Below are positions 9,270-27,700 of a stretch of DNA of 55,407 nt, piece by piece. The notes beneath the pieces were generated by a model. The model was not told where the DNA came from. It saw nothing but the letters and a program-made list of their open reading frames with translations, and made no database searches. Each line of letters begins with the position of its first letter. The first letter of the stretch is position 1. This stretch comes from Bdellovibrionales bacterium. GTDB lineage: Bacteria; Bdellovibrionota_C; UBA2361; RFPC01. The position numbers and the translations under genes were made by a program. The DNA lies in the NCBI GenBank assembly GCA_020434565.1, contig JAGRAO010000002.1, positions 1 through 55,407 on the forward strand. Direction: 5' to 3'.

Positions 9270-10340
9270 TCAGCTTCCACCGAACGGAGTTCTCGTCTCA
9301 GGTTGTTTTGCGCCTCTCCTGAGAAGACGTGAGAGCAAAAACGGAGCACGTTCTTCGACTACAGGAGTCAAAGGCAGTGGTGCTTTGAGCGGGGCTAGAG
9401 GAATCTCATCGTCGGGTGCAAGCCTGATAGGCTCACTCTGACGATAGCGCAAGAACTCTTCGAACATTGAGACAGCACTTCGAAAAGCGTCTCTATTGAG
9501 GCAGAGCCCATCACTGAACATATAGTTCCGGTAGCCCAAGTCCCAAAGCGTTTGAAGGTCTTTTAGGTCGCTGAGTGAGACCTCATTTCGAGGCGACTTC
9601 TCTGTTGAAGTCAGTATTCGTGATGCAACGATAGCTGAGGGATCACTTTTGATAATCAACTTTTCAGCTTCGAGCATATCAAGTTTATTTCCTCCGATGT
9701 TCGTATAGAGGTCATCTCTTGCAGCCATGAGACGGATCTTTCCGGCGTACTTTGGATAGACATGACGTACAAAATCGAGCCCCTTTGGAGATTCAATCTT
9801 GCAGATGATTTCCGCTTTCGGATCAAGCGCCAAGAGTTCTTTGATATCGTCTTCCTCTTCGACAAAGGACAGCAGATACCGATGGAGTCCCCGTTTCTTT
9901 GCTGCGGCGACGAATTCTCGATCTCTCTCAGTGAGGAATCCCTCGATAATGAGTGATGGATCTTGGATATTAATTGATTGTCCTGCACCGAGAGCGTACT
10001 TCGGTGCTTCATCAAGTACGAGCTTATTTCCATCAACGACATCTACGATAGTCGCCACCTCATCCCGGAAGATAATGCTGCAAGGGGTGTCGACCGCGAT
10101 GTTATGGTTGAGTGTTACGTGTTCCCAGCCTGGATCAACCCATTTTGTGATCCTGAGCTGTCGAGCTTTCAGATCTATCAACAGAGGTGTTTCTCCTGAT
10201 GTAAACATTGCTGAGTCAAGCATTTCGTCGGGAGATCTCCCAGTATCGACTCCGGTATTGAGTCGAACCTCATCTACTGACGGATGTTCTGCGATCTCTC
10301 TTCCGTGTCGGGCTTGGGGGGGTAGTGTGGCAATCAGCAT
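9270..10340 (-). CDS. Pyruvate-kinase-like TIM-barrel protein
   Basis: 356 aa, homologous to the catalytic core of pyruvate kinase but without its C-terminal regulatory domain. Seen in order: MLIATLPPQARHGREIAEHPSVDEVRLNTG; a small beta insert resembling the B domain (SIIFRDEVATIVDVVDGN, YALGAGQSINIQ); LTERDREFVAAAKKRGLHRYLLSFV, matching the pyruvate kinase segment before the active site; AEIICKIESPKGLDF with the catalytic Lys and metal-ligand Glu kept; RLMAARDDLYTNIG in place of MVARGDLG, metal Asp kept; and a later VASRILTS block. The last 60 residues are proline-rich. It probably binds an enolate or PEP-like substrate with Mg2+, but the reaction is unlikely to be glycolytic. TAGGAGA supports the start. 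It lies 8 bp after the vWA gene. Confidence 0.7.
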   Translation of the reverse strand: MLIATLPPQARHGREIAEHPSVDEVRLNTGVDTGRSPDEMLDSAMFTSGETPLLIDLKARQLRITKWVDPGWEHVTLNHNIAVDTPCSIIFRDEVATIVDVVDGNKLVLDEAPKYALGAGQSINIQDPSLIIEGFLTERDREFVAAAKKRGLHRYLLSFVEEEDDIKELLALDPKAEIICKIESPKGLDFVRHVYPKYAGKIRLMAARDDLYTNIGGNKLDMLEAEKLIIKSDPSAIVASRILTSTEKSPRNEVSLSDLKDLQTLWDLGYRNYMFSDGLCLNRDAFRSAVSMFEEFLRYRQSEPIRLAPDDEIPLAPLKAPLPLTPVVEERAPFLLSRLLRRGAKQPETRTPFGGS

Positions 10341-10348
10341 AACTTCTC

Positions 10349-11329
10349 CTAGAGTCGTTGACCTTTTCCTCGGCCCTTCTTTGTCCCTTGTGATTTTTTC
10401 GATTGCGTATTGGAGGCCTTCGATTTCTTCTTTACCTCTGGAACAATGCCTTTTAGAGCCGCCGTCACGTTCTTAATTCTCGTCTCGGTTTGTCCGCGAT
10501 CTCGCATATCTTGTTGGTACTGCTCAAGTGTTCGCGCGCCACTTGTGATGGCGACTACTCCGAGGATCACATCGACTACTGCTTTTGGTTCTTTGACTCG
10601 GATAAAGTCATCTCCTATGCTTCTTTTCCATTCGCTCTCCACTTGAGCATCGACATCCGAGTCTTTGTACGGAACGTGGATGTGCTTAAATGCATATTTG
10701 TCCCTCACCTGCTCAAATACTTTTTTGGTCGGAATGTCTGATTGCATGTGGCCGCCAAAATTTCTCGAAGCGTTGTCGGCGTCAACATTTGGGTAGGGGG
10801 CCTCATCACCGATAATGAAGAAGAATGGTTTTGATTCCTTTGCTTTCGGATGTGTGAATCGGGCGTTTTTTTCGTAAAAATGCGCAAGCATCTCGTAACT
10901 CTCGCATGCTTGTCCTCCGCCACCTCCTTCGAGATAGAGCTTTTCAATCCAATCATCGATCGTTTTGCCTTCGGCAAAATCACACACTTGAAACGGAGCG
11001 CCATCACAAGTGCAATCACCAACTGCAGCGAAACTGATAGAGAAATCTTTCAGGTATCCCTGCTGTTCAAGTTGTCCCCAAAGCATCGGGAGCTTGTCGT
11101 ACAGCAGCTTGGCGCTGTCTCCCATCGAGCCTGTCACGTCAAGTGCTATGACGATTGCATTCTTCGTTGTGCACTCGAGATGGCGGTTGAGCGGTAACAA
11201 TTTGGGGTCAAGCGCTCGAACATCAGAGGTCTTGAATGCGTGATCTGCGAGAGAACTCGAGTGAAAGCCGCTGCTCGAATAGTTGCTTCCAGAGCTATAG
11301 ACGTCTCTGTCGTACGAAAGTCCTCCCAT
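10349..11329 (-). CDS. vWA-domain protein with intact MIDAS
   Basis: 326 aa when started at the ATG at 11329, preceded by a strong AGAAGGAGA ribosome site; the open frame continues upstream but looks non-coding. A Ser/Tyr/Gly-rich leader is followed by IVIALDVTGSMGDSAK, a DxTxS metal-ion-dependent adhesion site (Asp64, Thr66, Ser68), then DFSISFAAVGDCTCDGAPF, a Gly-rich loop LEGGGGGQACESYE with the MIDAS-completing region, and FFFIIGDEAPYP. The final 40 residues are strongly basic (Lys/Arg/Ser), possibly for nucleic acid or membrane binding. No signal peptide, so cytoplasmic. It is the first gene of the leftward pair and faces the metallopeptidase-vWA gene across a 214-bp spacer, suggesting shared control. 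Confidence 0.85.
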   Translation of the reverse strand: MGGLSYDRDVYSSGSNYSSSGFHSSSLADHAFKTSDVRALDPKLLPLNRHLECTTKNAIVIALDVTGSMGDSAKLLYDKLPMLWGQLEQQGYLKDFSISFAAVGDCTCDGAPFQVCDFAEGKTIDDWIEKLYLEGGGGGQACESYEMLAHFYEKNARFTHPKAKESKPFFFIIGDEAPYPNVDADNASRNFGGHMQSDIPTKKVFEQVRDKYAFKHIHVPYKDSDVDAQVESEWKRSIGDDFIRVKEPKAVVDVILGVVAITSGARTLEQYQQDMRDRGQTETRIKNVTAALKGIVPEVKKKSKASNTQSKKSQGTKKGRGKGQRL

Positions 11330-11543
11330 GATCTTCTCCTTCTGATTTGGAGCGAAAGAAAAACCCTTTTCACTCCGCTTTAGTACTTTGAGCAGTACCA
11401 GGAATCCCTTTTGGCACCAAACAAGTGTGAAAAACGACGAAAGCCGATTTGAGAAGTAGGTGTTTTTGAGAACTGTTTGGTTCCAACAACAATTCGCTGC
11501 AAGTTTTAGAGAACAGAAACCAGTCATCAACGAATGAAAAAAC
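11330..11543. promoter_or_regulatory. Divergent promoter region between the two arms of the vWA/MoxR locus
   Basis: 214 bp between two start codons facing away from each other, so it should hold promoters for both arms. It includes a moderate inverted repeat, GGTTCC/AACAAC-type, near 11480-11495. I see no perfect -10/-35 pair and no strong ribosome site before the rightward ATG. Shared control is inferred from geometry. Confidence 0.4.
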
Positions 11544-13952
11544 ATGAGCGCTGAGATAATTGATTTTCAAGAGAGACGGTTCCTCGAAAGGCAAGCGGAG
11601 AGAGCCAGAAGTGTTTTCTCTCTCTCAGAGGAATCATTTTCATTTGGAAATGGGAGAAGCTCCGAAAATCCAGCCGATCTCATAGAGCCCGGATTTCTGT
11701 TGGAACTGCAAATAGTCGCACAGCAGATAGCTGGTGACTTGGGTCTTGAGGTTACAGTCGGTGAACCAGGACAGGGGAGCTTCTTCTCCTTTGATCCTCC
11801 TCTGATAACCCTCGATCCACTGCAAATTCTTGCAGATCCAGAGCGAGCGAAGTTCGTAGCCGGACATGAAGGAGCCCACCGGAGATTCTCTCCTTCACCA
11901 TACGATGTGTTCGAGTCTCGGGGTGAAGTCGATGAGCTCTATAGCCAGCCTGGCTTTCACGCAACGTTGAATACGATCGAAGACTGCGCGGTCAACGACG
12001 GAATGTCTCGTGAAGTTGTAGGGATGCGGGATTACACGACCCAGAATTATGCCAAGGCCGACCACGAGGGACTCACGATCCGAACACCTGAAATAGAAGC
12101 CATCGTTGACGCAATTGGACGAGAGCCTCTGTTTGCCAGAGCGCTTGCAGAGACAATGCGAGACTGGCACCGATGGCGAAAGGAGGTCGGGTACGATGAA
12201 CCGCTCGATAGGGTCGCTCGAGAAGGAAGGTACGGTGATGGACTTCCTCCATCAGTGGTAAAGGCTCTCCGCAACATGAAAACCGCTTGCCGCAAAGCGA
12301 TCGCGTGTATGCCAAAGACGGGAGAGAGAAATAGGGACACGATCCATGCTCTTGGTCGAAGGCGGATCGAGCAAGTGCGGCAGACCGTCTATCCAACGAT
12401 CAGGCGGCTCGTCACAGAAGATATCTCTCTTGAAGCGCTTCGTCAGGCTCTCCAGGAACGAAGCGCTCCGGGAGATTCAAATGGTAAACCTGGAACTTCA
12501 GCGCTTGACGGAAAGCTCTCACAACGCACTCAAGATGAAATAGAGAAAGCACGAAGTGAATTTCTCGCCGATCGGGCTCAGGCAAAATCAAAGAGCGCAC
12601 TGGAGTTGATCGATAGACTCCAGCAGGAAAAGGCTCTTCAAGAAGAGATAGAGGAGCAACAGCAGGCTGGTGGCGGGAGTGGAGCTTTTGATCATGAGCT
12701 TCGAGCGCAAAAAGCTGCTTCGTGTGCAAGAACAACTGAGTTTAAAAGTCAACTGGAACAGATCAGTGAGGGGCTTTCAGAGCGTGTCGAGCAAGGAGAG
12801 ACACCCTCTGAGGAAGAGCTTGCCGAGCAACTGAAGAATGAATTGGAAAACAATCTTCAAGAGCGGGGAGAGAGCCCCCTCCCGGTAGACAAACTTTCCA
12901 AAGCGGCACTTAAAGAGATTGAGGCTGCATTTGATTCTCTCGACGAAGCGCTAAAGGCAGAGTTCACGAAGCAAGCCGAGGAACAACTTGCGGAATTTGA
13001 GCACGAAATAGTTGAAGCGCTCCGTTCCAAACTTGACCCAGACCCTGTCCCGACTCTTCACGAGAATCTCGAAGACGAACGGAAAGCTCAAGAGCGGGCA
13101 GAAGAGTTTGCTCAGCGATGCGGGGCGATGGCGAACCTTCAAAGGCGACTTGAAAAGGACCGACGATCCTCTCTCGACGCCTTCGAGAGGGCTTTTGAAA
13201 GAGTTGCGAGCGCTGTCGTAGAGGCCACGAATCGTCTCCAGCGAGTGCTCATTCCCCAATCCTTTTTTACGTGGAAGAGAGATCAACTCTCGGGCGCGCG
13301 ACTTAATCTCCAGAGAGCTCTTCAGGCAGAAGCTGATCCTCGCTATCTCACGAAGCTCTTTGAGCAGCGCCTGAAGCCAACGAGACGCACGCATGCGTTT
13401 GAAGTTCTCGTTGATACCTCTGGCTCGATGAAAGGGGAAAAGATCAAAAGCACATTTGACGGTGTTGTTTTCGTTGCCGGGCTGCTTGAGAACCTGGGAG
13501 TACCTTTTGAAATACATGAGTTTAATGACACTCGAACGTGCCGTAAAAATTGGGACGACAGTGTCAAAGAGGTGTCAACTCGAAGGAGTCTCTCAACGAT
13601 AGTCTCTGCGAGTGATAACGGAACCCAGGATGCTCCGGCGGTATCGCATGTCTTTTCACAGCTTCAAGCTCGAGATGCAAACTTCAAGTTCATTTTTGTT
13701 CTCACCGATGCTCAATCAGGTGTTGGCACTGATCTTCAAAGGGTTGTGAAAAAAATCCAGAAGAGTGGAGAAGCTATTCTCATTCATTTTGGAATTGGTA
13801 ACGGGACATCGGATTCAAACGGATACTACGAGCACACGCACGGTGACCTATCGCCCGAAAAATTTTTTTCAAAACTGTGTGAGGTTGTTGAGGAGGCAAT
13901 ATTGACTCCTGAAAAGTACCTTTCAGAGAACAAATCAGTGACGAAGAAGTAA
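11544..13952 (+). CDS. HExxH metallopeptidase-like domain fused to a CobT-type vWA domain
   Basis: 802 aa in three parts. Residues about 40-280: LGLEVTVGEPG, then FVAGHEGAHRRFSP with a zinc-peptidase HExxH motif (His108, Glu109, His112) and a possible third ligand Glu146 in TLNTIEDCAVNDGM. Residues about 290-590: acidic, Glu/Gln-rich coiled coil. Residues about 600-802: a vWA domain of the CobT/NorD kind with EVLVDTSGSMKGEKI (MIDAS Asp624, Ser626, Ser628) and FIFVLTDAQSGVGTD. CobT-like vWA proteins partner MoxR-family AAA+ ATPases, here encoded 15 bp downstream. The peptidase-like part is the unusual element; catalysis is inferred from the motif alone. First gene of the rightward operon. Confidence 0.75.
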   Translation: MSAEIIDFQERRFLERQAERARSVFSLSEESFSFGNGRSSENPADLIEPGFLLELQIVAQQIAGDLGLEVTVGEPGQGSFFSFDPPLITLDPLQILADPERAKFVAGHEGAHRRFSPSPYDVFESRGEVDELYSQPGFHATLNTIEDCAVNDGMSREVVGMRDYTTQNYAKADHEGLTIRTPEIEAIVDAIGREPLFARALAETMRDWHRWRKEVGYDEPLDRVAREGRYGDGLPPSVVKALRNMKTACRKAIACMPKTGERNRDTIHALGRRRIEQVRQTVYPTIRRLVTEDISLEALRQALQERSAPGDSNGKPGTSALDGKLSQRTQDEIEKARSEFLADRAQAKSKSALELIDRLQQEKALQEEIEEQQQAGGGSGAFDHELRAQKAASCARTTEFKSQLEQISEGLSERVEQGETPSEEELAEQLKNELENNLQERGESPLPVDKLSKAALKEIEAAFDSLDEALKAEFTKQAEEQLAEFEHEIVEALRSKLDPDPVPTLHENLEDERKAQERAEEFAQRCGAMANLQRRLEKDRRSSLDAFERAFERVASAVVEATNRLQRVLIPQSFFTWKRDQLSGARLNLQRALQAEADPRYLTKLFEQRLKPTRRTHAFEVLVDTSGSMKGEKIKSTFDGVVFVAGLLENLGVPFEIHEFNDTRTCRKNWDDSVKEVSTRRSLSTIVSASDNGTQDAPAVSHVFSQLQARDANFKFIFVLTDAQSGVGTDLQRVVKKIQKSGEAILIHFGIGNGTSDSNGYYEHTHGDLSPEKFFSKLCEVVEEAILTPEKYLSENKSVTKK

Positions 13953-13967
13953 AGAGTAGGAGGAAGT

Positions 13968-15851
13968 ATGGAAAACCAACCGATCGCGTCAACGAAGCCT
14001 GTGCAAGATCAACTTCCGAGTCTCTCAACCAACCTTCCTGATCTCGCTGTTCACGGGTTTTCCTCCAATCTGCGAAAAGCTGCAAAACTGCAACGAGATC
14101 TTCTTGCTCGTGGTCCCGATGGACATTTTCTCGGAGGTATTGTTCACGAGCAGGTTCGAGGAGCAAAGGGAAAAATCGTTGGAAATGTGGTTCACATAGC
14201 GAATCCATTTCAGGGTGAACCACTTGATATTGTCACCCTTCCGACTCGATGTACGAGAGAAGAAATTGAGCAGATCCGCAGCAAAATTATCCCGATGCGC
14301 GAGACCTATGAAATCCTCGTATCACTCGCAAAGGCTTACGAACAACGCCACCCGATTCTCATTGAGGGAGATACGTCGATCGGGAAAACCTTTGTCGTGA
14401 ATCGGTTCATGGAAATTCTCTATGGAAAAGGAGCCCGTCCAATTGACTTCTATTGCTCCGGCCAGACCGATGTGTCAGAGCTCCTCGGAAAGTGGGCTCC
14501 CCGTTCATCCGGTTTGAGTGAAAGTGACAAAAAACTTTTGGATGAATTCCTCAACTCGACATACGGCAAGAATAAGCTGCAGCGAATTGATCAAGAGGTC
14601 GGTGAAGCAAAAGATCTTTCAAGTGAGGCACAGCAGGCACTCTTAAAATCGAAGCTCTCGGCCCTCATGAGTGAAATTGGCCTCAATAGCTCAGTTCAAT
14701 GGGAATTCTCATACGGAGCTGTTCCGAAAGCGATGATGTGTTCAGTGCAAGAAGATGGCTCTCCCGCGTTGTTAGGGACAAAGGGATCGGGAACGATTCT
14801 CAAAGTCGACGAGGTGGGGCTCGCTGAACCTGCGGTAGTCATGGCGCTCTTAAGAATCCGGGGTGAAGCTGGAAAACTCGCTGAGTCACTCCAGCTGTGG
14901 GAGGCCGGAGGCGAAGTCATTGATGCTGGCCCAGATTTCTTTGTCGTGTATACGACCAATCCAAGCGACAAAGACTATATTGAGCGAAAGGAGATCGATC
15001 CGGCTCTCGCTCGATCTGTCATTTGGCTCAGAAAAGGTTCGCTCTCAGACGAGTCGCTCTCGGTGGCTGCACAGAAGTACATGTCATTTTCGGTTGGAAA
15101 CGACCCCGGTCACAGGCCGCTCCGCACTGCGATAGATCTTCGGGAAGAAGAGGAGATCACAACAGAGATAGCAGAGATCGCTGCAGTCGTGCATAGACGA
15201 TACCTTGAGCTCATGAAAAATGGCGAAGCCGGGAGAAGGCAAAAGCTCCCCGGCTCACTTGACCACTTGGCCCGTCTTGCGAGTTATATGATCAGCAGTC
15301 AGGTTCAAGACACTTCTACCGGACAAGTCGATCTCTCAGTCACCCTTCAGCGTGGAGTGGAGTTTGTCTATCTCTCAGGTCTTGTGGATCCAAAGATAGG
15401 AGAAACAATCCGCAAAGAGGTCACAATGCTTCTTTCAGATAAAGGCATTGGGCTCAAAAACTTTCGCGGTCAGGATATGCTGCGAAAAGACATTCTCTCT
15501 CTTCTTGGTGAAGAGGCGATCAAACGCAAAAAAGCATCTCCTGCCAAGCGCTCACCACAGAGCATCCTCTCTGATCATGAGCGACAGATGTGTGTCGATA
15601 TCCAAGAGAGTATCCAGGCTCAAATTGCGATCCCTACTCTTTCCCTCGAAAACTCCCTTCTTCCTCAGATAGGAGATGCGCTCGAGATAATTACAACCCG
15701 TGAACTTCAAGAGGAGCTCCTCGACGAGATCGGTAGCTCGGCGAAGCCTGATTCAAGGACTACTGAAGAGTGGGAGAGGTTTGTAGGAGCGCTCGACGAG
15801 CTCAAGTGTCGCATCAACGGCACCAGTGAAGAAGTGGATCTCGTTGCGTAG
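13968..15851 (+). CDS. MoxR/CobS-like AAA+ ATPase
   Basis: 627-aa ATPase of the AAA_5 (dynein-related/MoxR) type. Seen: ILIEGDTSIGKTFVVNRFME with Walker A G134-T141; TILKVDEVGLAEPAVVMALL with Walker B Asp281-Glu282; FFVVYTTNPSDKDYIE as sensor 1; IDPALARSVIWLRKG with a probable arginine finger. About 130 residues precede the P-loop, and a helical insert (residues about 180-235) separates Walker A from Walker B. The C-terminal 250 residues are helical lid and tail. GGAGG stands 7 bases ahead of the ATG. Known for the family: MoxR ATPases act with vWA proteins to remodel or metallate targets. Gene order here (vWA 15 bp before, pseudokinase 17 bp after) argues for a single complex. Confidence 0.85.
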   Translation: MENQPIASTKPVQDQLPSLSTNLPDLAVHGFSSNLRKAAKLQRDLLARGPDGHFLGGIVHEQVRGAKGKIVGNVVHIANPFQGEPLDIVTLPTRCTREEIEQIRSKIIPMRETYEILVSLAKAYEQRHPILIEGDTSIGKTFVVNRFMEILYGKGARPIDFYCSGQTDVSELLGKWAPRSSGLSESDKKLLDEFLNSTYGKNKLQRIDQEVGEAKDLSSEAQQALLKSKLSALMSEIGLNSSVQWEFSYGAVPKAMMCSVQEDGSPALLGTKGSGTILKVDEVGLAEPAVVMALLRIRGEAGKLAESLQLWEAGGEVIDAGPDFFVVYTTNPSDKDYIERKEIDPALARSVIWLRKGSLSDESLSVAAQKYMSFSVGNDPGHRPLRTAIDLREEEEITTEIAEIAAVVHRRYLELMKNGEAGRRQKLPGSLDHLARLASYMISSQVQDTSTGQVDLSVTLQRGVEFVYLSGLVDPKIGETIRKEVTMLLSDKGIGLKNFRGQDMLRKDILSLLGEEAIKRKKASPAKRSPQSILSDHERQMCVDIQESIQAQIAIPTLSLENSLLPQIGDALEIITTRELQEELLDEIGSSAKPDSRTTEEWERFVGALDELKCRINGTSEEVDLVA

Positions 15852-15868
15852 TTGAAGTGGAGGAACTC

Positions 15869-17062
15869 ATGATGACGACGGATCAACAAAGAGAACCGGG
15901 TCCTGAACCTTCAGATTTTGCTCTGCGAGATATACAGATTCTCCGCGATCTCGTTCTCTCGGCGACAACCTCCGAAATGCTTTTCGGAGAGCTCGAGGGA
16001 GCGGACGCTGAAAAGCTCGCTGCACTCAACTCCAAGTATTTTGTTCTGGCGAAAAGGTGCAAAGAGGCGACAAAGTCGCCTGATCCAAAAGCAGTAGAGT
16101 TAGGTCAAGATACCTTTGAAGCACTCTCGGAAATCTATCGGGCGGCCCAAGAAAGTATTCGAAGTGGCTCGTATGGCCAAGGCGCGAAATGGAAAGTCAC
16201 GTCGGGTTCTCAATCGCTCGGTACTATCGCTGGAGCTCTTCATACGTATTCTCTCGTTGAGTTGATAGCAGACGGAGATGTCGCGCTTGTTTATCGAGCA
16301 GAATACCAAAACGAGAAGGGAGAAGTCGCCAACGCGTGTATTAAAGTAGCGAAAGACTGCGTTGATAACCCACTTGTCGAGAATGAACAGGAGATTCTCG
16401 CCACGTTGAATCATATCTCTCTGCCAAAGTTTCTTGAAGGATTTGAACTTCCCGATGGGCGATCAGTTTCGGTGACCGAGTTTGCGAAGGGGCTCACTTT
16501 TCACGATCTCCGAGAGAGCAATCTGCACGGCGACGGGCTTCAGGAGCCCAACTATCACATCGGATGGGTGCTTGAGCGAACTCTCGCTGTTCTCGGCTAT
16601 CTCCATTCTCAGGGGATCGTTCACGGGAGCGTCGAGCCGGCTCACCTCATCGTTCAACCTGATACGCACAATGTCGTCCTTGTTGATTTTTGCTGGGCTA
16701 CTCGCGATCCCAAAGAGGGAGACCACGTACAGATTGCTCAGGAGTACTATTCCCCTCCTGAAGTGTACGAAAAAGAGACACCCCATCCCGCGATCGATAT
16801 TTACGGCCTCGGAAAATCTGCTGTCTATCTGCTTGGAGGGGATCCGGAGTACGTCCAAATGCCTGACACTCTTGATCTTCTGTACGTTCAATTCCTTGAG
16901 CGAATGACAGCCGAAGATCCTCAGCTCCGCTCGCACGATGCTTTTCAGCTCGCCCATCACTTACTCGTTATTCGCGCTGAAGTATGCGGGGCAAAGAGGC
17001 CCTTTCTCGCTCTCGTAACAGACAGAGGGGTCGAAGAACAGAATTTAGGAAAACCGGAATGA
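15869..17062 (+). CDS. Pseudokinase with protein-kinase fold
   Basis: 397 aa from the ATG at 15869, chosen because GGAGG lies 5 bases before it. Residues about 130-390 follow the protein kinase pattern: a degenerate glycine loop (LIADGDVALVYRAEY), NACIKVAKDC with the ATP-site Lys159, an alpha-C-like NEQEILATLNHISLPKFLE, VTEFAKGLTFHDL at the hinge, and AVLGYLHSQGIVHGSVEPAHL where HRDxKxxN has become HGSxExxH (His252-His259). DFG reads DFC (Asp273-Cys275), and YYSPPEVY replaces the APE region. Loss of the catalytic Asp and Asn means phosphotransfer is unlikely; it may bind nucleotide and act as a switch. The N-terminal 125 residues are helical and unassigned. Confidence 0.75.
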   Translation: MMTTDQQREPGPEPSDFALRDIQILRDLVLSATTSEMLFGELEGADAEKLAALNSKYFVLAKRCKEATKSPDPKAVELGQDTFEALSEIYRAAQESIRSGSYGQGAKWKVTSGSQSLGTIAGALHTYSLVELIADGDVALVYRAEYQNEKGEVANACIKVAKDCVDNPLVENEQEILATLNHISLPKFLEGFELPDGRSVSVTEFAKGLTFHDLRESNLHGDGLQEPNYHIGWVLERTLAVLGYLHSQGIVHGSVEPAHLIVQPDTHNVVLVDFCWATRDPKEGDHVQIAQEYYSPPEVYEKETPHPAIDIYGLGKSAVYLLGGDPEYVQMPDTLDLLYVQFLERMTAEDPQLRSHDAFQLAHHLLVIRAEVCGAKRPFLALVTDRGVEEQNLGKPE

Positions 17063-17083
17063 GAAGAATAGGAGAATGTACAT

Positions 17084-17602
17084 ATGATGATGCACACACC
17101 TAAAGAAAATGGCGAAACAATGGCTTCTGTGGAAGGTCCTGACCCAGTTCCATGGCCGGGCGCGCGCTATGAACTCATAGCCGACACACAGGGATTCGTC
17201 GAACCAGAACGTGCTGCTCAAATTGTTACTGAGAGGCTCGGAACTGCTTCGTCGTGGACCGTTGATCGACCAGAACGTTCAAATGTTGAAAATATTTTCT
17301 CATTGGAGTGTGACGGGTCACCACTTGAGATTCGTGCGAGACTTGCAGGTATGGGAGTTCACGCAGAAGCGGAGAGAATTGAATATGTTCTTGAGTGCAA
17401 TTTCCTTTTGGGGAAGCAAAATGACGGTTCCTATCAAACCAGAGAAGTTGCGAGAGGCAGTATAGACGATGTGGCAGACGCGGTGGCATCTTTACACCCT
17501 CTTCTTAAGTCGAGCTTTGATACCTACTGCAAATTTGAAACAAACCGACCGATAGTCTCGTCGATTGAAGAGATCGAAAGAGTACTTCGCACGATCCGCT
17601 AG
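17084..17602 (+). CDS. Hypothetical protein of the vWA/MoxR operon
   Basis: 172 aa, not recognised. The sequence alternates strands and helices (RYELIADTQGFVEPERAAQIVTERL, FSLECDGSPLEIRARLAG, ERIEYVLECNFLL), suggesting a small alpha/beta fold. No signal peptide or membrane segment. TAGGAGA stands about 7 bases before the ATG. It begins 21 bp after the pseudokinase gene and is followed by two hairpins, so it is probably the last gene of the first transcription unit. Its placement suggests an accessory subunit of the ATPase complex. Confidence 0.7.
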   Translation: MMMHTPKENGETMASVEGPDPVPWPGARYELIADTQGFVEPERAAQIVTERLGTASSWTVDRPERSNVENIFSLECDGSPLEIRARLAGMGVHAEAERIEYVLECNFLLGKQNDGSYQTREVARGSIDDVADAVASLHPLLKSSFDTYCKFETNRPIVSSIEEIERVLRTIR

Positions 17603-17628
17603 GAGGGGATGGAATAGTTGCACTCAGT

Positions 17629-17689
17629 CTTCGGAACAGTCGTAACTCCGAAGGAATTTTTGGGCCAGGGATTCGTTCCTGGCCCAAAA
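17629..17689 (+). terminator. Two tandem hairpins, possible attenuator or partial terminator
   Basis: First stem CTTCGGA/TCCGAAG (17629-17635, 17647-17653), 11-nt loop. Second stem TTTTGGGCCAGG/CCTGGCCCAAAA (17658-17669, 17678-17689), a perfect 12 bp with an 8-nt loop. A pyrimidine-rich TCCTCCCTCTT follows, not a clean T run. They sit between the 172-aa gene and the TIM-barrel/PurA-like pair and may reduce readthrough. Confidence 0.5.
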
Positions 17690-17731
17690 TCCTCCCTCTT
17701 GAAAGATTCATCTTCGTGTTGAAGAGAGGGA

Positions 17732-18409
17732 ATGACACGGACAAAACAAATTATGATTATCGCTTCTCTCATACCTTTTTCAGATGCAAGTAGAGCGATC
17801 GCGTGTCACCCCGCGGTGGACCACCTTGCACTCTCTGTTTCGTCTACGCCGAGTTTTGGAGAAGAGGATTGTCTCTCATGGGCTTTCGATGTGTGTGGCT
17901 TGAGACCTCTCCATGTAATAATTGACCGGAGGCTTCTCTCCCAGTTGACAGCATTCTCTTTCCTCAAAAAGGCGCGACAAGAAGGCATCCGAAGATTTAT
18001 TGTAGCCGCTGACATACACTATGAAGAAGCTCGACGGATTCGTGAGATCCTTCCAGATGGAGAGTTTATTGTTCGAGCGAAATCATTTCGTGAGCTCTAT
18101 CACCTGAGAAGAAGCGTTGAATGCCTCGGAGATTCAATTCGCCATATAGCACTCAATACGGCGTATGAGGCGCCTGAGTGTCTGAACCTTTTTGAAGGGG
18201 AGCGTATTCTTTGGGGAAGTCCCGATAGATTCCTTCAGTCTTTCGAAAAAATAATCTTTGACTCATTCCCCCCAGGGCTGTTGCTTACAGAAGAGAAGTG
18301 TCGGAACTTCGCCTCTCTCTGTATCGAACTACGCAAGCGAGTATACTGGGATCGAGAACGTGAAAAAAATTTAAGGTACCTTCGATGGCCAACGCCTCGA
18401 TTTGGATAG
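17732..18409 (+). CDS. TIM-barrel-like protein, short relative of the pyruvate-kinase-like gene
   Basis: 225 aa. The N-terminus MIIASLIPFSDASRAIACHP followed by AVDHLALSVSST parallels MLIATLPPQARHGREIAEHP then SVDEVRLNTG of the protein encoded at 9270-10340. Later strand-helix units (PLHVIIDRRLL, RRFIVAADIHYEEARRIREIL, EFIVRAKSFRELYHLRRSV, RHIALNTAYEAPE, ERILWGSPDRFLQSFEKIIFD) have the rhythm of a TIM barrel. The KIE and ARGD metal-site motifs are not visible, so it may be a binding or non-classical member. An AGAGGG ribosome site precedes the ATG. Its last 25 bases overlap the PurA-like gene, so the two are translationally coupled. Confidence 0.55.
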   Translation: MTRTKQIMIIASLIPFSDASRAIACHPAVDHLALSVSSTPSFGEEDCLSWAFDVCGLRPLHVIIDRRLLSQLTAFSFLKKARQEGIRRFIVAADIHYEEARRIREILPDGEFIVRAKSFRELYHLRRSVECLGDSIRHIALNTAYEAPECLNLFEGERILWGSPDRFLQSFEKIIFDSFPPGLLLTEEKCRNFASLCIELRKRVYWDREREKNLRYLRWPTPRFG

Positions 18410-19830
18410 TATGTGGACTCGGATTTGGGGATGAGGGAAAGGGAACCATATCAGAGTTCCTCGCTTCGTACTCAGGCGCGGAAGGTGTCGTTCGGTACAA
18501 TGGAGGCCCCCAAGCAGCTCACCATGTTGTTCGCGAAGATGGAACGGTGCACTGCTTTAGTCAATTCGGGTCAGGCTCTTTTCTCAAGCGCGTTCGGAGT
18601 CACCTTGCTCATACAGTTTTGGTGAAGCCCACCAACCTTCTTGTCGAACGTGACGCCTTGATCGAAAAAGGTGTGGATGATTTAGGGAAGCGCTTTTCGC
18701 TCGACCCTAACGCCAACGTGGTGACTCCTTGGCACGCTATGCTTGGAAGAATGGAAGAGGTTTCCCGCGGTGCCGACGCGCATGGAAGTGTCGGAATGGG
18801 GGTCGGAAAAGCTGCCAAAGAGAGAAGTGTGCTCGGAGAAAAGGCTCTTTCAATTTCTGATCTTACATCGCCGAGTTCTCTCCGCGATAAACTCGTAGCT
18901 CATTGGGATCGGACCATATCTGAGGCTGAGCTCCTGCTCTCCCGATCTCCTTCACATAGTGAACTCAATTCCCTTTTTCATTCGTATGGTGAAAGAGCGA
19001 GTCTTGAGACGATGTACGAGGAATATCAAAAACTAGGCGAAATTCTCTCTCCGCATTTCTCAAGTGATACTTCATTCGGTGAACTCATTTCGTCAAAGCA
19101 CCTTATTCTTGAGGGAGCTCAAGGTGTACTGCTCGATTACGTGTTTGGCTTCTTTCCGCACGTTACCAAAACCGATACGACATTTGCATCGGCTGAGCCT
19201 TTTATAAGAGCATCCGGCCTGAAAGATGCGCAGATTGCTCGAGTCGGAGTCCTTCGAGCCTATGCAACTCGACACGGGGCTGGTCCGTTTGTCTCCGAGG
19301 AGCGTTCATTGGAATCTGTTTTTCATGAGCCTCACAACGGAGCTCACCGGTGGCAAGGGCGATTTCGCGTTGGGCACTTTGATCTCGTAGCTTCTCGTTA
19401 TGCGGTGGCTGCGAGTGGGAAGCCAGACATTCTCGCCTTTACTCACCTCGATACCGTCGGTCGCCAGCCAAGTCTAAAAGTTGTTGAAACGTATTCTTAC
19501 AAAGGTAAAGCACCTCCCGATGAGCTTGAATGCTATTTCGAGATGAAATCAAATCGTGAGCTCTCTTCAATTCGATTGCGAGAAGATTCAGATCAAAAAC
19601 ATCAATCCCGATTGACAGAGTTACTGAGAGAGTGCGTTCCGGGCCGTGTGAAGAACTTTGAAGGGTGGGGAGCGTTTCATCCAACTCAAGCAGTGGAACT
19701 CCCTTTAGCACTCTCTCGTTTCCTTGAATTTCTCGAGTCAGAGAACGGACTCGGCTTACCCGTTTCGGTTCTCTCGTTCGGTCCGACTTCACAAGACAAG
19801 ATGGTTCGCTCTTCTCTCCTTCCGGCCTAA
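18385..19830 (+). CDS. Divergent adenylosuccinate-synthetase (PurA) paralogue
   Basis: 481 aa, longer than PurA (about 430). PurA joins IMP and aspartate using GTP. Kept: GFGDEGKG (Asp16, the catalytic base position), His46 in QAAHHVV (PurA NAGHT), and LILEGAQGVLLDYVFGFFPHVT, the second PurA signature. Changed: QWGDEGKG has lost QW; HNAGHT reads PQAAHH; the aspartate loop TTGRPRR reads WQGRFRV; KLD reads HLD in AFTHLDTV. An insert of about 60 residues lies around 160-225. The GTP/phosphate machinery looks usable, but the amino-acid pocket is altered, so a related ligation on another substrate is likely. It overlaps the TIM-barrel gene by 25 bp. It should not be annotated as the housekeeping purA. 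Confidence 0.75.
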   Translation: MANASIWIVCGLGFGDEGKGTISEFLASYSGAEGVVRYNGGPQAAHHVVREDGTVHCFSQFGSGSFLKRVRSHLAHTVLVKPTNLLVERDALIEKGVDDLGKRFSLDPNANVVTPWHAMLGRMEEVSRGADAHGSVGMGVGKAAKERSVLGEKALSISDLTSPSSLRDKLVAHWDRTISEAELLLSRSPSHSELNSLFHSYGERASLETMYEEYQKLGEILSPHFSSDTSFGELISSKHLILEGAQGVLLDYVFGFFPHVTKTDTTFASAEPFIRASGLKDAQIARVGVLRAYATRHGAGPFVSEERSLESVFHEPHNGAHRWQGRFRVGHFDLVASRYAVAASGKPDILAFTHLDTVGRQPSLKVVETYSYKGKAPPDELECYFEMKSNRELSSIRLREDSDQKHQSRLTELLRECVPGRVKNFEGWGAFHPTQAVELPLALSRFLEFLESENGLGLPVSVLSFGPTSQDKMVRSSLLPA

Positions 19831-19992
19831 AAAAGGTCAGCAGCTCTGAAAATTTCTCTTGGTATTAATGCGATTCAGTAGTATTCATAAGAATAAGACA
19901 TAAACACATATATCTTCCGGAAGGCATAAATCTAGTAAATCTAGAATGTTATGTAGCAAATGAGCCGGACAAGACACTCAGGGGATAGCAGA

Positions 19993-20988
19993 ATGAGACT
20001 TAGTACGAAGGAAGCGGATGTTTTGGCAGCGGTTGAGTTAAGGGCTTCTATGCGAGTCGATGAGATCCGAGAGGAGCTCGGCTATCGCGCGCACACTGTT
20101 CGATATGCGCTCAGTAGCTTGCGGCAACGGCAAATTATCTGGAGGCTTCCCTTTATCAACGTCCGTGCGCTCGGGTACACCATCCACAATCTCTATATCT
20201 CGGTTGGCTCGGAGAAGAAATCTCATCGGCAATCGTTTCTTGCAGCACTCCTCAATGAGCCCGAAGTGCTCCGTATCTCAGAACTTGGGTCGGAATACCA
20301 GTATGGGCTCGAAGTGTGTGCAAAGAATCTCTCTGATGTCGGTTTGTTGGTCCGGCGCATCGCATCGCAGTTTGAGCACTTCCATTTTGAAAAAGCGGTT
20401 GCCAGTCAACTCGCAACAACGTACCTCCCAAGACGATATCTTTCATCGAAGATGGTTCGGTCTAAGCCCTTGCAGATTGCCCGAACAGATAGGATCTTTG
20501 ATGTAGATGAGATTGACGAAAAGATCCTTCGAGTGCTCGCTCGAGGAGGTGAAATGACCCGCGCTGGCCTCGCACGGGAAGTCGCAGTCCCAGTAACTAC
20601 ACTTGATGCTCGCCTCAAGCGGCTGGAATCAAGAGGTATCGTCGGAGGGTATATCTACCACGTCGTCCCAGCAGCCTATCAGATGCAATCTCACACCCTC
20701 CTTCTACAGATGAGGAACCTCAATCGTGAGACCCTCAACAAGCTCTTTGTTTTTGCTGAACAACATCCAGCAGTGGTAAGAATTACTGAGTGTTTCGGGA
20801 GTTGGGACTTTGAGTTGGGGATTGAGGTGCGTCTCCCGAGTGAAGTAGCAGAAGTCCAGGAATCTCTGTATGAAGCGATAGGCGATCATGTTCACCTCGT
20901 TAAATCGCTCTGCAAGTATCGTGATCTGAAAGTTCAATTTTATCCGGTAAAGCAGGAGCGGCAAAATCGAATGTCTGCTGCCGCGTAG
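19993..20988 (+). CDS. Tandem Lrp/AsnC-type transcriptional regulator
   Basis: 331 aa from the ATG at 19993, favoured over 19960 because AGGGGAT lies about 7 bases upstream. It holds two Lrp-like units. Unit 1: helix-turn-helix TKEADVLAAVELRASMRVDE then TVRYALSSLRQRQIIWR, plus a ligand-binding part. Unit 2: the clearer Lrp pattern IDEKILRVLARGGEMTRAGL, TTLDARLKRLESRGIVGGYI, and a RAM-like domain. Normal Lrp proteins are about 150 aa, so this is a duplication-fusion. The AT-rich leader contains the perfect palindrome CTTCCGGAAG (19914-19923) and a doubled TCTAG, possible operator sites. It lies 162 bp after the PurA-like gene and heads a three-gene set. Confidence 0.75.
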   Translation: MRLSTKEADVLAAVELRASMRVDEIREELGYRAHTVRYALSSLRQRQIIWRLPFINVRALGYTIHNLYISVGSEKKSHRQSFLAALLNEPEVLRISELGSEYQYGLEVCAKNLSDVGLLVRRIASQFEHFHFEKAVASQLATTYLPRRYLSSKMVRSKPLQIARTDRIFDVDEIDEKILRVLARGGEMTRAGLAREVAVPVTTLDARLKRLESRGIVGGYIYHVVPAAYQMQSHTLLLQMRNLNRETLNKLFVFAEQHPAVVRITECFGSWDFELGIEVRLPSEVAEVQESLYEAIGDHVHLVKSLCKYRDLKVQFYPVKQERQNRMSAAA

Positions 20989-20996
20989 GGAATTCT

Positions 20997-22301
20997 ATGA
21001 TTCGAGTTGGCGAAGTGGATCGGGTGCAGGGGGAGCGAGAAGTCGAGCTTCGCTCTCTCCACCGCCTTTTCCGCAAAGCGCAGCAAAATAATAGATCGGT
21101 GGCCGAATTCACACTGGCTGAGCAACTTGCATTGATTGAAATTCAGACCGCTTCAGAGCGTGGTGTTGAAGAAGATCTGCTCACCCCAAAAGATGTCGCA
21201 GCGTCCCTTTCACTTGAACAAAGTATAGTCTCTCGACTTCTCGCGCGCTTAGAACAGCGTCGAGCAATCGAGAGTAGAGTTTCCTCAATAGACGCTCGAC
21301 GCCGTTTGCTCCGCCCTACTCGTGAGGGGAGTGACTATCTGCGCCAGGTCGACCAGCGGGCAAACGAGATTCTCTCATCTCGCCTTGAAGGACTCTCGTT
21401 AAAGGAACAAAAGGCAGTTCATCAGCTCTATAGAAAGCTCGCTGACGGTTTGGGAGTAGAAAGGAGTATCCAAAGGAAAAGCGATCATCCGCTTCGTCCA
21501 GATCAGAGGCGACTCACCCGCGCCTTTGGGTTAATTGGAAAATCGTACGGTGGGTTTCCGCTTGCTCCGTCTGAGTGGCATATCTTGGCGGAGCTTCTCG
21601 AGCAGGAGATGAATAGTACTGAACTCTCAACCCGAATCGGACTGCCACTTACGACAGTAGGTCAAATTGTATCTCGCCTTGAACTCCGTGGACTCCTCAC
21701 TCGCAAACGCTCGAAATTTGATCGAAGAAAGCAGAGCCTTTCTCTCACCAAAAATGGCCGAGCGCTCGTTGAAGAAGTTGAGTGTTCATTTGTGAATCGA
21801 TTTGATGGCGCTCTCCTGGATAGCTCAAACATACAGCTCAAGAAGTTCCGTGAGGCGTTTGAAAAATTCACTGGCGTTGAGACCGTCACCCTCATCGAAG
21901 GAAGGACTCTTAAGGTTTCGACTGAAGCTGGTGAGCGAGCTCAAGCGAGAACGTTTCTCCTTGAAGAGCTCGTTCGTTCTGGAAATCACCCATTTGCTGG
22001 CGAGCGACTCCTTCCAAAGGACTCCATCTGCGTACTTTCACTCTCTGCGGGGGTTTTGGATGGTGTTTTCCAGTTTGAGCTGGAAAACACCACACTCCGC
22101 CTTTCTCTCGCGGCGTGGGGGAGAGAGATGAATGAAAAGGCTCTCCTGGAAGTGCTTAACAAACTTGGAGATCTTCTCGAATCTTCGATTGGACGAGCAG
22201 AATGGGAACTCGCTTTCCCACCTCTTGAAAGGGTGTACTACAGTGGGGCGGAGTCTTTGAATTCAGATTGTCCTTTGAACACAGGCGCTTCCGACCTATA
22301 A
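20997..22301 (+). CDS. Tandem MarR-type regulator with extra C-terminal domain
   Basis: 434 aa with two MarR-like winged helices. Unit 1 (about 35-130): LALIEIQTASER, LTPKDVAASLSLEQSIVSRL and LARLEQRRAIESRVSS then DARRRLLRPT. Unit 2 (about 165-270): FPLAPSEWHILAELL, NSTELSTRIGLPLTTVGQIV, SRLELRGLLTRKRSKFDRRK and LSLTKNGRALVEE. One chain may thus mimic the usual MarR dimer. The last 150 residues form an alpha/beta domain (ICVLSLSAGVLDGVFQFELE) that I cannot assign. The gene starts 8 bp after the tandem Lrp gene and ends 9 bp before the next, so the three are probably one transcript. A perfect 12-bp hairpin lies in its coding sequence. Confidence 0.7.
   Translation: MIRVGEVDRVQGEREVELRSLHRLFRKAQQNNRSVAEFTLAEQLALIEIQTASERGVEEDLLTPKDVAASLSLEQSIVSRLLARLEQRRAIESRVSSIDARRRLLRPTREGSDYLRQVDQRANEILSSRLEGLSLKEQKAVHQLYRKLADGLGVERSIQRKSDHPLRPDQRRLTRAFGLIGKSYGGFPLAPSEWHILAELLEQEMNSTELSTRIGLPLTTVGQIVSRLELRGLLTRKRSKFDRRKQSLSLTKNGRALVEEVECSFVNRFDGALLDSSNIQLKKFREAFEKFTGVETVTLIEGRTLKVSTEAGERAQARTFLLEELVRSGNHPFAGERLLPKDSICVLSLSAGVLDGVFQFELENTTLRLSLAAWGREMNEKALLEVLNKLGDLLESSIGRAEWELAFPPLERVYYSGAESLNSDCPLNTGASDL
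22062..22091. repeat. Perfect 12-bp inverted repeat inside the tandem MarR gene
   Basis: Arms GGTGTTTTCCAG (22062-22073) and CTGGAAAACACC (22080-22091), loop TTTGAG. It encodes GVFQFELENTT. It may be an internal operator or an mRNA hairpin. Confidence 0.8.
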
Positions 22302-24715: not shown

Positions 24716-27700
24716 CTACGATTGGCTTTCCCTGTCGAGATCTCTCACGAAGCCAGCGACAGTTGTCGGCCAGTTCATGACAGTGCCGAGGTCATCGTAG
24801 TTCCCCTGCATCGGTGAACCGTCTATATCGGCAAGGGCTCTGAGACGTGTCACCTCGCGAGATTCTCTTTTGAAATTCGCAAACGAACTCGGAAGTGCGC
24901 CACCGTGAGAGCCTCCGAGGATTATAGCTTCTGCTCTCAGAGGTTCGGCTTGGAGTTTTTCAATAGCCTGAAGAATATTGGCAGCACCTTTCTCTTCGTT
25001 TCCTGTTGTGAGGTAAATGCCATTCAAATTGAGCGTGAGTCCACCATCATTTGTTGCGCCATAATCCCCCATTACAAAACCAAGATTGTTCCTGATGACA
25101 GTCGATTCGTCCTTTGCGGATGGTTGGTCCTCTTCGATTACCCAAACAAACGACATAGGATCTCTCATTCGAGCAGCCAGCCACTCCTTATTCGGCCTTC
25201 CAAAGACCTTCATCTCATAGTTCGTGCTCGAGTAACAACACAACCTTGAGTCAGCAAACCGAGCAAAGGTGGTAAGGTCTCCGCACTTGTCCAAAAGCCT
25301 CAAACGAACTGTTTTCTCTTTCTCCGATTGTTTTTTCACTTGAGAGAGATCAACGATACTGAGAATTGTTTCAAAAGGGTGATCAAGGTGCGAGGCAAGC
25401 TCTTTGAGAAGCTCGGCGTCGCCCTCAGTTATAGTTTTCTCATCAAGAACTTCCACAAGAGATGAGAGAAACAGACGCGAAGCAGACTTCTCTACAACAG
25501 CTTTGAGATACTTCTCTTCTGATTCGATCTGTTCTTTTCGCTCTCTTGGCGTGAGGTGCCTATACCGGTCGACTACAGGAGAGAGAGTGAGAGCACGAAC
25601 CTCCTCTCGCAGTCGCACAAGGTCCTCTTCAATCTTTGTTACCTTTTCCTGGAGAATCTGATCCTCTGGGCGCATCTCAACACCGGCCTGCACTCCACGA
25701 AGAGCCTTTTCCTTTCTCCGAATCTCCTTTTGTCGTGCTGCGATCTGTGGATTGGTGCCTTTGAGTGCTTGTAGCACGGCAAGTTTCGACTCCTTTCGAG
25801 ATCGTCTAAGAAGCTCGATTCCGGCGAGAAGTTGATCTCCTTCGACTTTTGGTGAGCTGTGGAGGACTTCCTCAAGAGGGAGTGAAATCTGCAGAAGGCC
25901 TTCTATCGATTCCCACCCGGGTAAGAGTAACTCCTTCGCCTGCCTGTACAAAACAGGATGGTCCGCTTCAATCTGATTTGCAACTCGTTCTCTCTCTATA
26001 AGTGTATCAGCCTGGTTGATTGAACGCAGGAGACTACTTGTTTCCTGCGAGTGATCTCCATCGTCAATCTGCTGTTGCAGAATGGGTCGTGACGCCATTG
26101 TCAGGAGTACCCCGCCGAGCTGATCTGAACCAAGAACCTGAGAGAGCTCGGCGCAGGCAATACGGATGCGATTACTTTCAGAGATATCAATTCGAACTTC
26201 TTGTTCCAATGTTGGAGAGTATGCTGTGTGAAACGGATGCCTTCCACGAATAAGATTGCTCACGATCCGCTCTGTATGTTCACGCTGTATTCCGCTTTTC
26301 TCGAGCAAACCTCGGAACTGCTCAAGTGGGGCCGGATGGAGCCGAAAAGACTGGGCAAGCTCAACAATTTCCTGAAATCGTTCGAATGGATAGTTATTGA
26401 TCAATTGAAACCGAGAACTCGGAGATCGAAGGACAAAAAATGCGATTTGACCATCGACGTCAGAAGAGAGAAGCGAGAGGAGTGTGCTGAGGTCTTCGAC
26501 TTCGTCAAAGGTCTGCCTATAGCTCTCGAGCTTCGCAAATCTTTGACGGATGCTCTCGGGTGAACTCCCATCGCGAGTGAAGTATTCGAGGAGTGTTTTT
26601 GAGGGAACCACTCCATATTGTCGCAACATACGGATACATCCTGCGCGAGCAGGAAAATCCGAACTAGTCTCGCTTTGCTCGAGCCACGTAAGAATTTCAG
26701 GATCGAGATATTTCAACTCAGTAAGGCGGCGGAGTAACACTCTCGTAAAACGGCCCTCAACCCGAGGATCGGTGGCAACATCGAGAATGAGTTCACACTC
26801 TCGAATCCCACTCCTTCTTTGGTGGTGAGGGTTGAAGTCGGGAAAGTCATCCTCAAACGGTACGAAATCACCTCCCGCAAGATCAAACACTTGATCTCCC
26901 CCGGTTCCCCGCGCCCGACGAAGGTTTAAGAGACAGAGGTTCAGAATAGGATCGTTGGGTCCGCTCCTATGATATCGATCACGAACGTAACTCAGGAGAG
27001 AATCCTGGTCGCTCTTTGAGCCAAACTGAGAGAGTACCGAAACGCAAGCCTGTCGGAGTGCAGGTGGTGTGGTTTCTTCGAACACCATTCCTCGGCATCG
27101 GTCGAGAATCGCCTTTTGCAATTGACCATCTTGCAACGTAACTCCAAGCGTCATCGCCCTTGCGAGAGACGCTGGAGCGATATCGTTGCTTGGCCTGTCG
27201 AGAAAGCGTTGGACGACTTCGCCCATGTAGCTTCGGAACTTTCTTTGTTCTGAGTTGTCGGTCTCCCCAAATTGGAGGAAGTCCGGAAGGGCTCGTTCAA
27301 GCCGAGAGCGCCGATCTGTGAGCCAGTCAAAAACGGTTCGCACGAGCGCACTTGGCATTCGAGGAAATTCTGAATGAGAGCACAGACTGAGGCTCGCTCT
27401 GTCAAGCACAACTTTGATTACGGGGGATTCGTGCTTGCGCAAGGAATGGAAGGCCCCGACAATCAGTGCTGAGTTATTCAACGGATCTTGATTTAAGACG
27501 TAGGACCCTACATCGTACACTGGCTGTGAACACCGTTTACTTGGCTGCTCACTAAACGCCTTTGTGAAGGGGACGAGAAATTGAAGAACCCGAGAGCGTT
27601 GTTCCTTATTCTCACTTTCAATACTCTCTCGAACGATGTCTTCGAGGCGCCTGAAGTCAACATCTGTTCCGAGTGACGCTAAACTTACAAGCGATGAGGC

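Follow-up and report, generated by a model that had tools for sequence, protein, structure and literature searches.

Do the eight genes at 9270 to 19830 of a Bdellovibrionales contig, which combine two vWA proteins, a MoxR-type ATPase, a kinase-like protein and relatives of two metabolic enzymes, form a single system? The whole stretch analysed, 55,407 nucleotides of contig JAGRAO010000002.1, is called the window hereafter. An initial annotation had read the genes as one system in two divergent arms. All eight open reading frames (ORFs) are found at the positions it gave, and the family matches agree with its assignments; Pfam, NCBIfam, PADLOC and PHROGs were scanned with the eight proteins of the locus and two neighbours. 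The features are as follows, with the evidence in brackets.

9270..10340, minus strand: PK1, pyruvate-kinase-like protein with A and B domains and no C domain (Pfam PK, AF2, Foldseek, residue alignment)
10349..11329, minus strand: vWA1, hub of the core module, with a DxTGS MIDAS-type motif (phrog_2971, alignment, relatives at 166 loci)
11330..11543, no strand: intergenic region of 214 bp between the divergent arms (sequence)
11544..13952, plus strand: HExxH metallopeptidase-like protein with a C-terminal vWA, CobT-like (VWA, weak CobT_C, conserved motifs)
13968..15851, plus strand: MoxR/CobS-like AAA+ ATPase, partner of the HExxH-vWA protein (AAA_5, conserved Walker A region)
15857..17062, plus strand: pseudokinase with a degenerate N-terminal J-domain region (Pkinase match, DnaJ in relatives, residue census)
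17084..17602, plus strand: u172, orphan 172-aa protein (ORF; no family match)
17732..18409, plus strand: bar2, decayed second copy of the pyruvate-kinase-like protein (alignment; iterated profile recovering the pyruvate kinase set)
18385..19830, plus strand: ligase resembling adenylosuccinate synthetase (AdSS, PurA), of a distinct clade (Adenylsucc_synt, 150-sequence census, tree)

Most of the locus is two modules joined. Module 1 is a tight unit made of a J-domain (pseudo)kinase, a vWA protein, and an AdSS-like ligase and/or a pyruvate kinase (PK) that lacks the C domain. Module 2 is the HExxH-vWA protein with its MoxR partner. The comparison does not support one eight-gene system in two arms: the coupled unit spans the arms, with vWA1 and PK1 on the left and the kinase and PurA-like genes on the right. 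Each module also occurs without the other. The HExxH-vWA/MoxR pair stands alone in three order-level relatives (L014-L016; genomes G010, G019 and G028), with a gene of about 125 aa between its members, and same-family and same-class genomes (L209-L212) have kinase-vWA-PurA without module 2, one of these contigs beginning inside the vWA gene. Further, u172 is private to the window and bar2 is decayed.

A kinase-vWA-ligase unit in bacteria, archaea and large phages

The vWA1 protein matches phrog_2971 (E 4e-42), and a profile scan finds relatives in both genome contigs (547) and viral contigs (468). Locus counts come from the best 80 of the 547 and the best 80 of the 468, ranked by similarity to the seed, and fractions among loci therefore apply to these best relatives. 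The 166 vWA-seeded loci span many bacterial phyla, DPANN archaea and large phages; 146 carry a PurA-like gene, 130 a kinase and 16 a PK-like gene, in the usual order kinase-vWA-[PK]-PurA. Seeding with the PurA clade instead, a vWA gene is present in 76/80 viral loci, and the remaining 4/80 have less than 1 kb of sequence upstream, where the vWA gene would lie, being cut by contig ends. Both of the two viral matches seeded with PK have vWA and kinase genes. The gene order in the window is not due to chance, since kinase, vWA and PurA genes are linked again in most related loci seen.

Individual loci show the same layout. Bxz1-group mycobacteriophages (L018) have a kinase, then a vWA gene, one small gene and a PurA-like gene; on Rhodococcus and Agrobacterium plasmids the vWA gene is flanked by a kinase-family gene, annotated 'hypothetical', and an adenylosuccinate synthetase gene; a 485-kb phage has the order kinase-vWA-PK. 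ORFs of the GC-rich actinobacterial loci were called by a greedy script, and antisense ORFs contaminate the neighbour clusters.

Three variants can be told apart. Kinase-vWA-PurA (a) is the commonest. Kinase-vWA-PK with no PurA found in the locus (b) occurs in Woesearchaeota, Nanoarchaeota, Pacearchaeota, Spirochaetales and huge phages (two of these show no kinase gene in the locus). The third (c), with both PK-like and PurA-like genes, is that of L023, L069, L079 and the window; its PK sequences form one clade in the tree (support 100/100). Within the phylum, vWA1 is present in 5/46 genomes.

No description of a kinase-vWA-AdSS unit was found in a literature search limited to open-licence papers. 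Module 1 is apparently an undescribed three-to-four-gene unit common to bacteria, archaea and large phages, its newness resting on that search and on the tests of membership in known classes, given below, which it failed.

Other genes near module 1 deserve mention. In a Myxococcota metagenome-assembled genome (MAG), an 806-aa ORF (L060:6004-8421) between PurA and a divergent kinase-vWA has zinc-ribbon-like CxxC motifs and, judged by eye, a possible SPFH/band-7-like part. Several phage loci (for example L020, L134, L144, L149, L162, L170, L178) have TROVE, Thg1-like, RtcB-like and RNA-ligase-like genes.

Module 2 and its joining to module 1

The proposed vWA-MoxR remodelling pair is supported. 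The HExxH-vWA and MoxR genes are adjacent and their motifs conserved. The first protein matches VWA (E 4e-8) and weakly CobT_C; it carries HEGAH and DTSGSM, and HExxH and DxSGSM are conserved in 5 aligned sequences. Its partner matches AAA_5 (E 2e-5), with a conserved Walker A region. Strong MoxR matches occur in 4/46 genomes of the phylum, and these overlap with the 5 bearing vWA1 only in the window's own genome. Searching a phage collection with the window MoxR by tblastn gave no match; scans of viral contigs gave one relative for MoxR and none for the HExxH-vWA protein, and the distribution of module 2 is therefore under-sampled.

Could module 2 be an independent chaperone system for large assemblies, in which MoxR works with a peptidase-vWA co-chaperone, and lie beside module 1 by coincidence? 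Its separate occurrence in the three order-level relatives speaks for this, as does phage contig L183, where portal-like and capsid-like genes (identified from sequence alone) flank the pair. Group 2.2 jumbo phages carry a MoxR and metallopeptidase-vWA pair with the same HExxH-vWA fusion beside a MoxR AAA+ protein, and a role in virion assembly has been proposed (PMC7824862); we liken the two by architecture. The pair of the window differs in being chromosomal, joined to kinase-vWA-PK-PurA and away from virion genes. Against coincidence stands L069, a Thermoanaerobaculia MAG (Acidobacteriota), in which kinase-vWA-PK-PurA and HExxH-vWA-MoxR are six collinear genes; PurA overlaps the HExxH-vWA gene on one strand, and the MoxR is the only strong MoxR match of that genome. 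On balance, chance adjacency seems somewhat unlikely.

L069 also answers the expectation that the composition would recur in distant taxa, which these six genes do there. As the modules adjoin in both the window and this MAG, the combined composition is not private to one lineage, and nearly everywhere else the two are separate. Locus L025 (Woesearchaeota), with an AAA protein and an HExxH-vWA near vWA-PK, was not counted: hhalign gives no support for the HExxH protein, and the AAA protein has only a Walker-A match.

In the MoxR tree the window protein falls with those of its own order, and L069 pairs with L030. On this topology, weakly supported (77/83), module 1 and module 2 would have been joined on independent occasions. 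The 'divergent arms' of the window are a rearranged operon. In other trees, the window vWA1 groups with viral L103-L105 and L023 (SH-aLRT 82-88) and the PurA-like protein with L023 and L079 (support 99 and 96). The copies in same-family genomes G001 and G002 fall elsewhere in both trees, which bears on the question of horizontal movement.

On phage contig L183, a reverse-transcriptase-like ORF (11812-12846, by eye) lies near the HExxH-vWA/MoxR pair.

Proteins of the core unit

The kinase-like protein (Pfam Pkinase, E 2e-16) is a pseudokinase, as had been proposed: HGS and DFC replace HxD and DFG, so that it does not qualify as an active kinase, the VAIK lysine being kept. Its N-terminal J-domain region is degenerate; Pfam recognises DnaJ in relatives, and a residue census finds HPD kept in 110/130 of them and lost in the window. 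The full set of HxD, DFG and lysine is intact in 10/130 kinases, all of variant (b), with PK-like present and no PurA found in the locus. These 10 form one clade and therefore represent one event. The pairing of active kinase with PK-like enzyme, and of pseudokinase with AdSS-like enzyme, could be used to investigate how a kinase fold turns into an adaptor.

PK1 matches the Pfam PK barrel (E 9e-7). Its AF2 model has pLDDT 85, with residues 306-356 below 50, and the best Foldseek matches are all pyruvate kinases (E 1e-16), over the A and B domains only. The protein ends after the barrel, without the allosteric C domain of pyruvate kinase. The A/B domains hold the KIE and Asp metal site, and the RxN, DxK, KIE and D residues are invariant across 9 sequences. 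The other barrel-like protein, bar2, is indeed a relative of the PK-like barrel, and the alignment shows it to be a decayed paralogue of PK1 that has no B domain and has lost the KIE and Asp residues. With its catalytic residues gone, we rejected bar2 as a second enzyme.

The PurA-like protein matches Adenylsucc_synt (E 1e-64) and phrog_1211 (E 5e-67), the latter annotated '2-aminooxy adenylosuccinate synthetase'. Residues are numbered as in E. coli PurA. Within the clade, D13 and K16 are kept in 150/150 sequences and H41 in 149/150, along with Q224 and T239. As in PK1, the core catalytic residues are thus retained, in keeping with the proposal that these are enzymes. N38 is changed to Q in 148/150, T129 to C or V in 143/150, and V273 to H and T301 to Q in nearly all; R143 is kept in only 8/150. 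In housekeeping PurA, N38, T129 and R143 contact the 5'-phosphate of IMP. The clade does not retain these contacts, and scores for the PurA equivalog in NCBIfam are far below the cut-off. The clade has thus kept the catalytic Asp and His, and its substrate pocket is rebuilt. Judging from these replacements, the substrate has probably changed, with binding through a free 5'-phosphate unlikely.

PurA, PurZ and this clade share the fold, the P-loop and catalytic Asp13 and His41, from which the clade stands apart by its separate position, by Q38, H273, Q301 and C/V129, by the lack of R143 in most members and by nearly constant linkage to vWA in the loci seen. PurZ changes D13. The window protein keeps it and scores 49.5 bits against the NCBIfam PurZ cut-off of 300. 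In PurZ, the Arg matching R143 forms an ion pair with the α-phosphate across the dimer (PMC8342488).

These comparisons bear on another explanation, in which the enzymes produce a nucleotide-like metabolite that the kinase/vWA pair detects, or a hypermodified nucleic-acid base, as Ter-linked modules and PurZ would suggest. The composition of vWA, kinase and biosynthetic enzyme would fit, as would the homology to phrog_1211 and the fact that either a PK-like or a PurA-like protein can be the enzyme of module 1. Against it stand the PurZ score, the absence of PurZ-specific changes (D13 being kept), and the locus itself, in which no Ter protein was noticed, nor any Z-cluster gene nearby. We regard it as quite unlikely.

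A possible role in NAD and ADP-ribose metabolism

The genes next to module 1 in relatives point to NAD/ADP-ribose metabolism. NrtR-type regulators, which sense ADP-ribose (PMC9503650), are matched as NUDIX plus NrtR_WHD near module 1 in most bacterial loci (61), where the usual position is immediately upstream of the kinase gene; six phage loci also give strong matches. NAMPT-family genes occur in 10 viral loci, with a weak match in L079; ADP-ribosylglycohydrolase (ARG) is matched at 9 loci, some of them duplicate records; NMNAT-like genes are also among the close neighbours. Huge phage L238 has the order NrtR-NAMPT-vWA-PurA-kinase-nucleotidyltransferase. In Parcubacteria (L079:1401-12919), one run holds NrtR, a nucleotidyltransferase, kinase-vWA-PK-PurA, ARG, an isochorismatase-family protein and a NAMPT-like gene. 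With NrtR, NAMPT, NMNAT-like and ARG genes adjoining relatives, a nucleotide-like substrate for the locus is plausible. Tight linkage, broad span and an AdSS clade with kept chemistry and a replaced pocket together imply an unrecognised reaction on a purine-type substrate.

The best explanation as a whole, to which we give a probability of roughly 0.42, is that of two fused modules with adaptor-controlled enzymes, serving NAD+/ADP-ribose-linked purine-nucleotide repair or signalling in phage-host conflict. The J-pseudokinase and vWA1 would together act as an adaptor without catalytic activity, bringing in a protein client (by way of DnaK where HPD is kept) and controlling the enzymes of module 1. 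The AdSS-like enzyme would use GTP to activate a 6-oxopurine-type substrate other than ordinary IMP and join an amino acid to it, and the PK-like enzyme may supply or consume a phosphoenol group. Module 2 would act on this complex or on its client, either by remodelling or by proteolytic processing. If this setting is true, module 1 would be a new component of phage-host nucleotide warfare, with testable substrates.

Several points weigh against this explanation. Both modules are secure together in only two loci, the window and L069. The fragmentary L030 has MoxR, and no HExxH-vWA was found there; L025 resembles them in architecture only, homology of its HExxH protein being undetectable. The profiles used detect no gene for NrtR, ARG, NAMPT or Nudix in the window. 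The NrtR-bearing loci are not independent events, because most are actinobacterial, and jumbo phages commonly carry NadV in any case. In the window, a role in DnaK recruitment is weakened by the loss of HPD.

A narrower form, which we hold to be unlikely, makes kinase-vWA-PurA/PK an undescribed NAD/ADP-ribose-linked conflict or repair class. The PurA clade would then join an amino acid to a hypoxanthine-type group on a substrate without a free 5'-monophosphate, such as deaminated NAD, ADP-ribose or an immune nucleotide, the MoxR-peptidase pair being added in some lineages.

The frequency of module 1 in large phages, and the NAMPT gene adjoining it in some, might instead indicate counter-defence or nucleotide repair. 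The PurA-like enzyme, which keeps the catalytic residues acting on a 6-oxopurine, would consume hypoxanthine nucleotides ((d)ITP, (d)IMP, deaminated NAD/ADP-ribose) produced by deaminase immunity (RADAR, Kongming), and the neighbouring NAD genes would rebuild NAD+. Kongming, according to the Namat paper, turns dAMP into dITP, which triggers an NADase (PMC12774641). However, module 1 is also common in bacterial chromosomes, where no counter-defence role is obvious, and no lyase (PurB) was noticed in the loci. Such a purpose seems rather improbable.

Comparison with known systems

Module 1 shares with Ter systems the theme of vWA, kinase-type switch and nucleotide-type enzymes. It differs in that its enzymes are PurA-like and PK-like and its kinase is fused to a J-domain region; the four profile scans, which covered the eight proteins of the locus and two adjoining ones, found no TerD, TerB, TerC or TelA. 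The vWA-MoxR NTP-dependent conflict systems (PMC7159879) likewise hold vWA and MoxR in one locus, and many of their kinases also lack catalytic residues, but no VMAP-type effector is recognised in the window locus. CobS, CobT, adenylosuccinate and pyruvate kinase do not appear in the main text of that paper. ARG-centred NAD/ADP-ribose host systems (PMC9503650) show the same type of neighbourhood, with Nudix regulators, ADP-ribosylglycohydrolase and vWA; ARG, however, is present in only a few module 1 loci, and the paper has no mention of adenylosuccinate, PurA or AdSS.

Setting of the locus

The ORF called for vWA1 (10349-11545) starts too early. In the alignment, relatives begin at 'MGxGxWDxxxY', so we moved the start to the ATG near 11329, which leaves 214 bp before the HExxH-vWA gene at 11544. 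The gap between the arms is thus as first described. We rejected its reading as a shared promoter region, since promoter-like matches over the locus (6 found, 8.0 expected) give no signal above chance. Same-strand gaps are short (8 bp from PK1 to vWA1, 15 bp from HExxH-vWA to MoxR, 5 bp from MoxR to the kinase), and bar2 and the PurA-like gene overlap by 25 bp. The protein u172 has no match in the four family scans and no relative in viral contigs or in any of the phylum's 46 genomes; its AF2 model is unusable (pLDDT 41).

The assembly holding the window has 434 contigs and is an estimated 84% complete. Because this genome separately encodes a standard PurA (split across two contigs) and a standard pyruvate kinase, the PurA-like and PK-like genes of the locus are extra copies. 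The GC content of the locus, 49.4, does not stand out from the 49.1 of the window. Ordinary chromosomal genes, among them trpS, FeoB and flagellin genes, surround it, giving no support to the window as a phage remnant.

Elsewhere in the window, two very long ORFs lie at 24716-29266 (1516 aa, no Pfam family) and 49957-53169 (1070 aa), and a gene for Replication initiator protein A (PF10134) occupies the left end (23-1564). Downstream of the PurA-like gene, at 19960-22301, are tandem regulators, Lrp/AsnC-like and MarR-like, in both of which the winged-helix domain seems to be doubled; a further doubled Lrp-like gene is found at 35342-36433.

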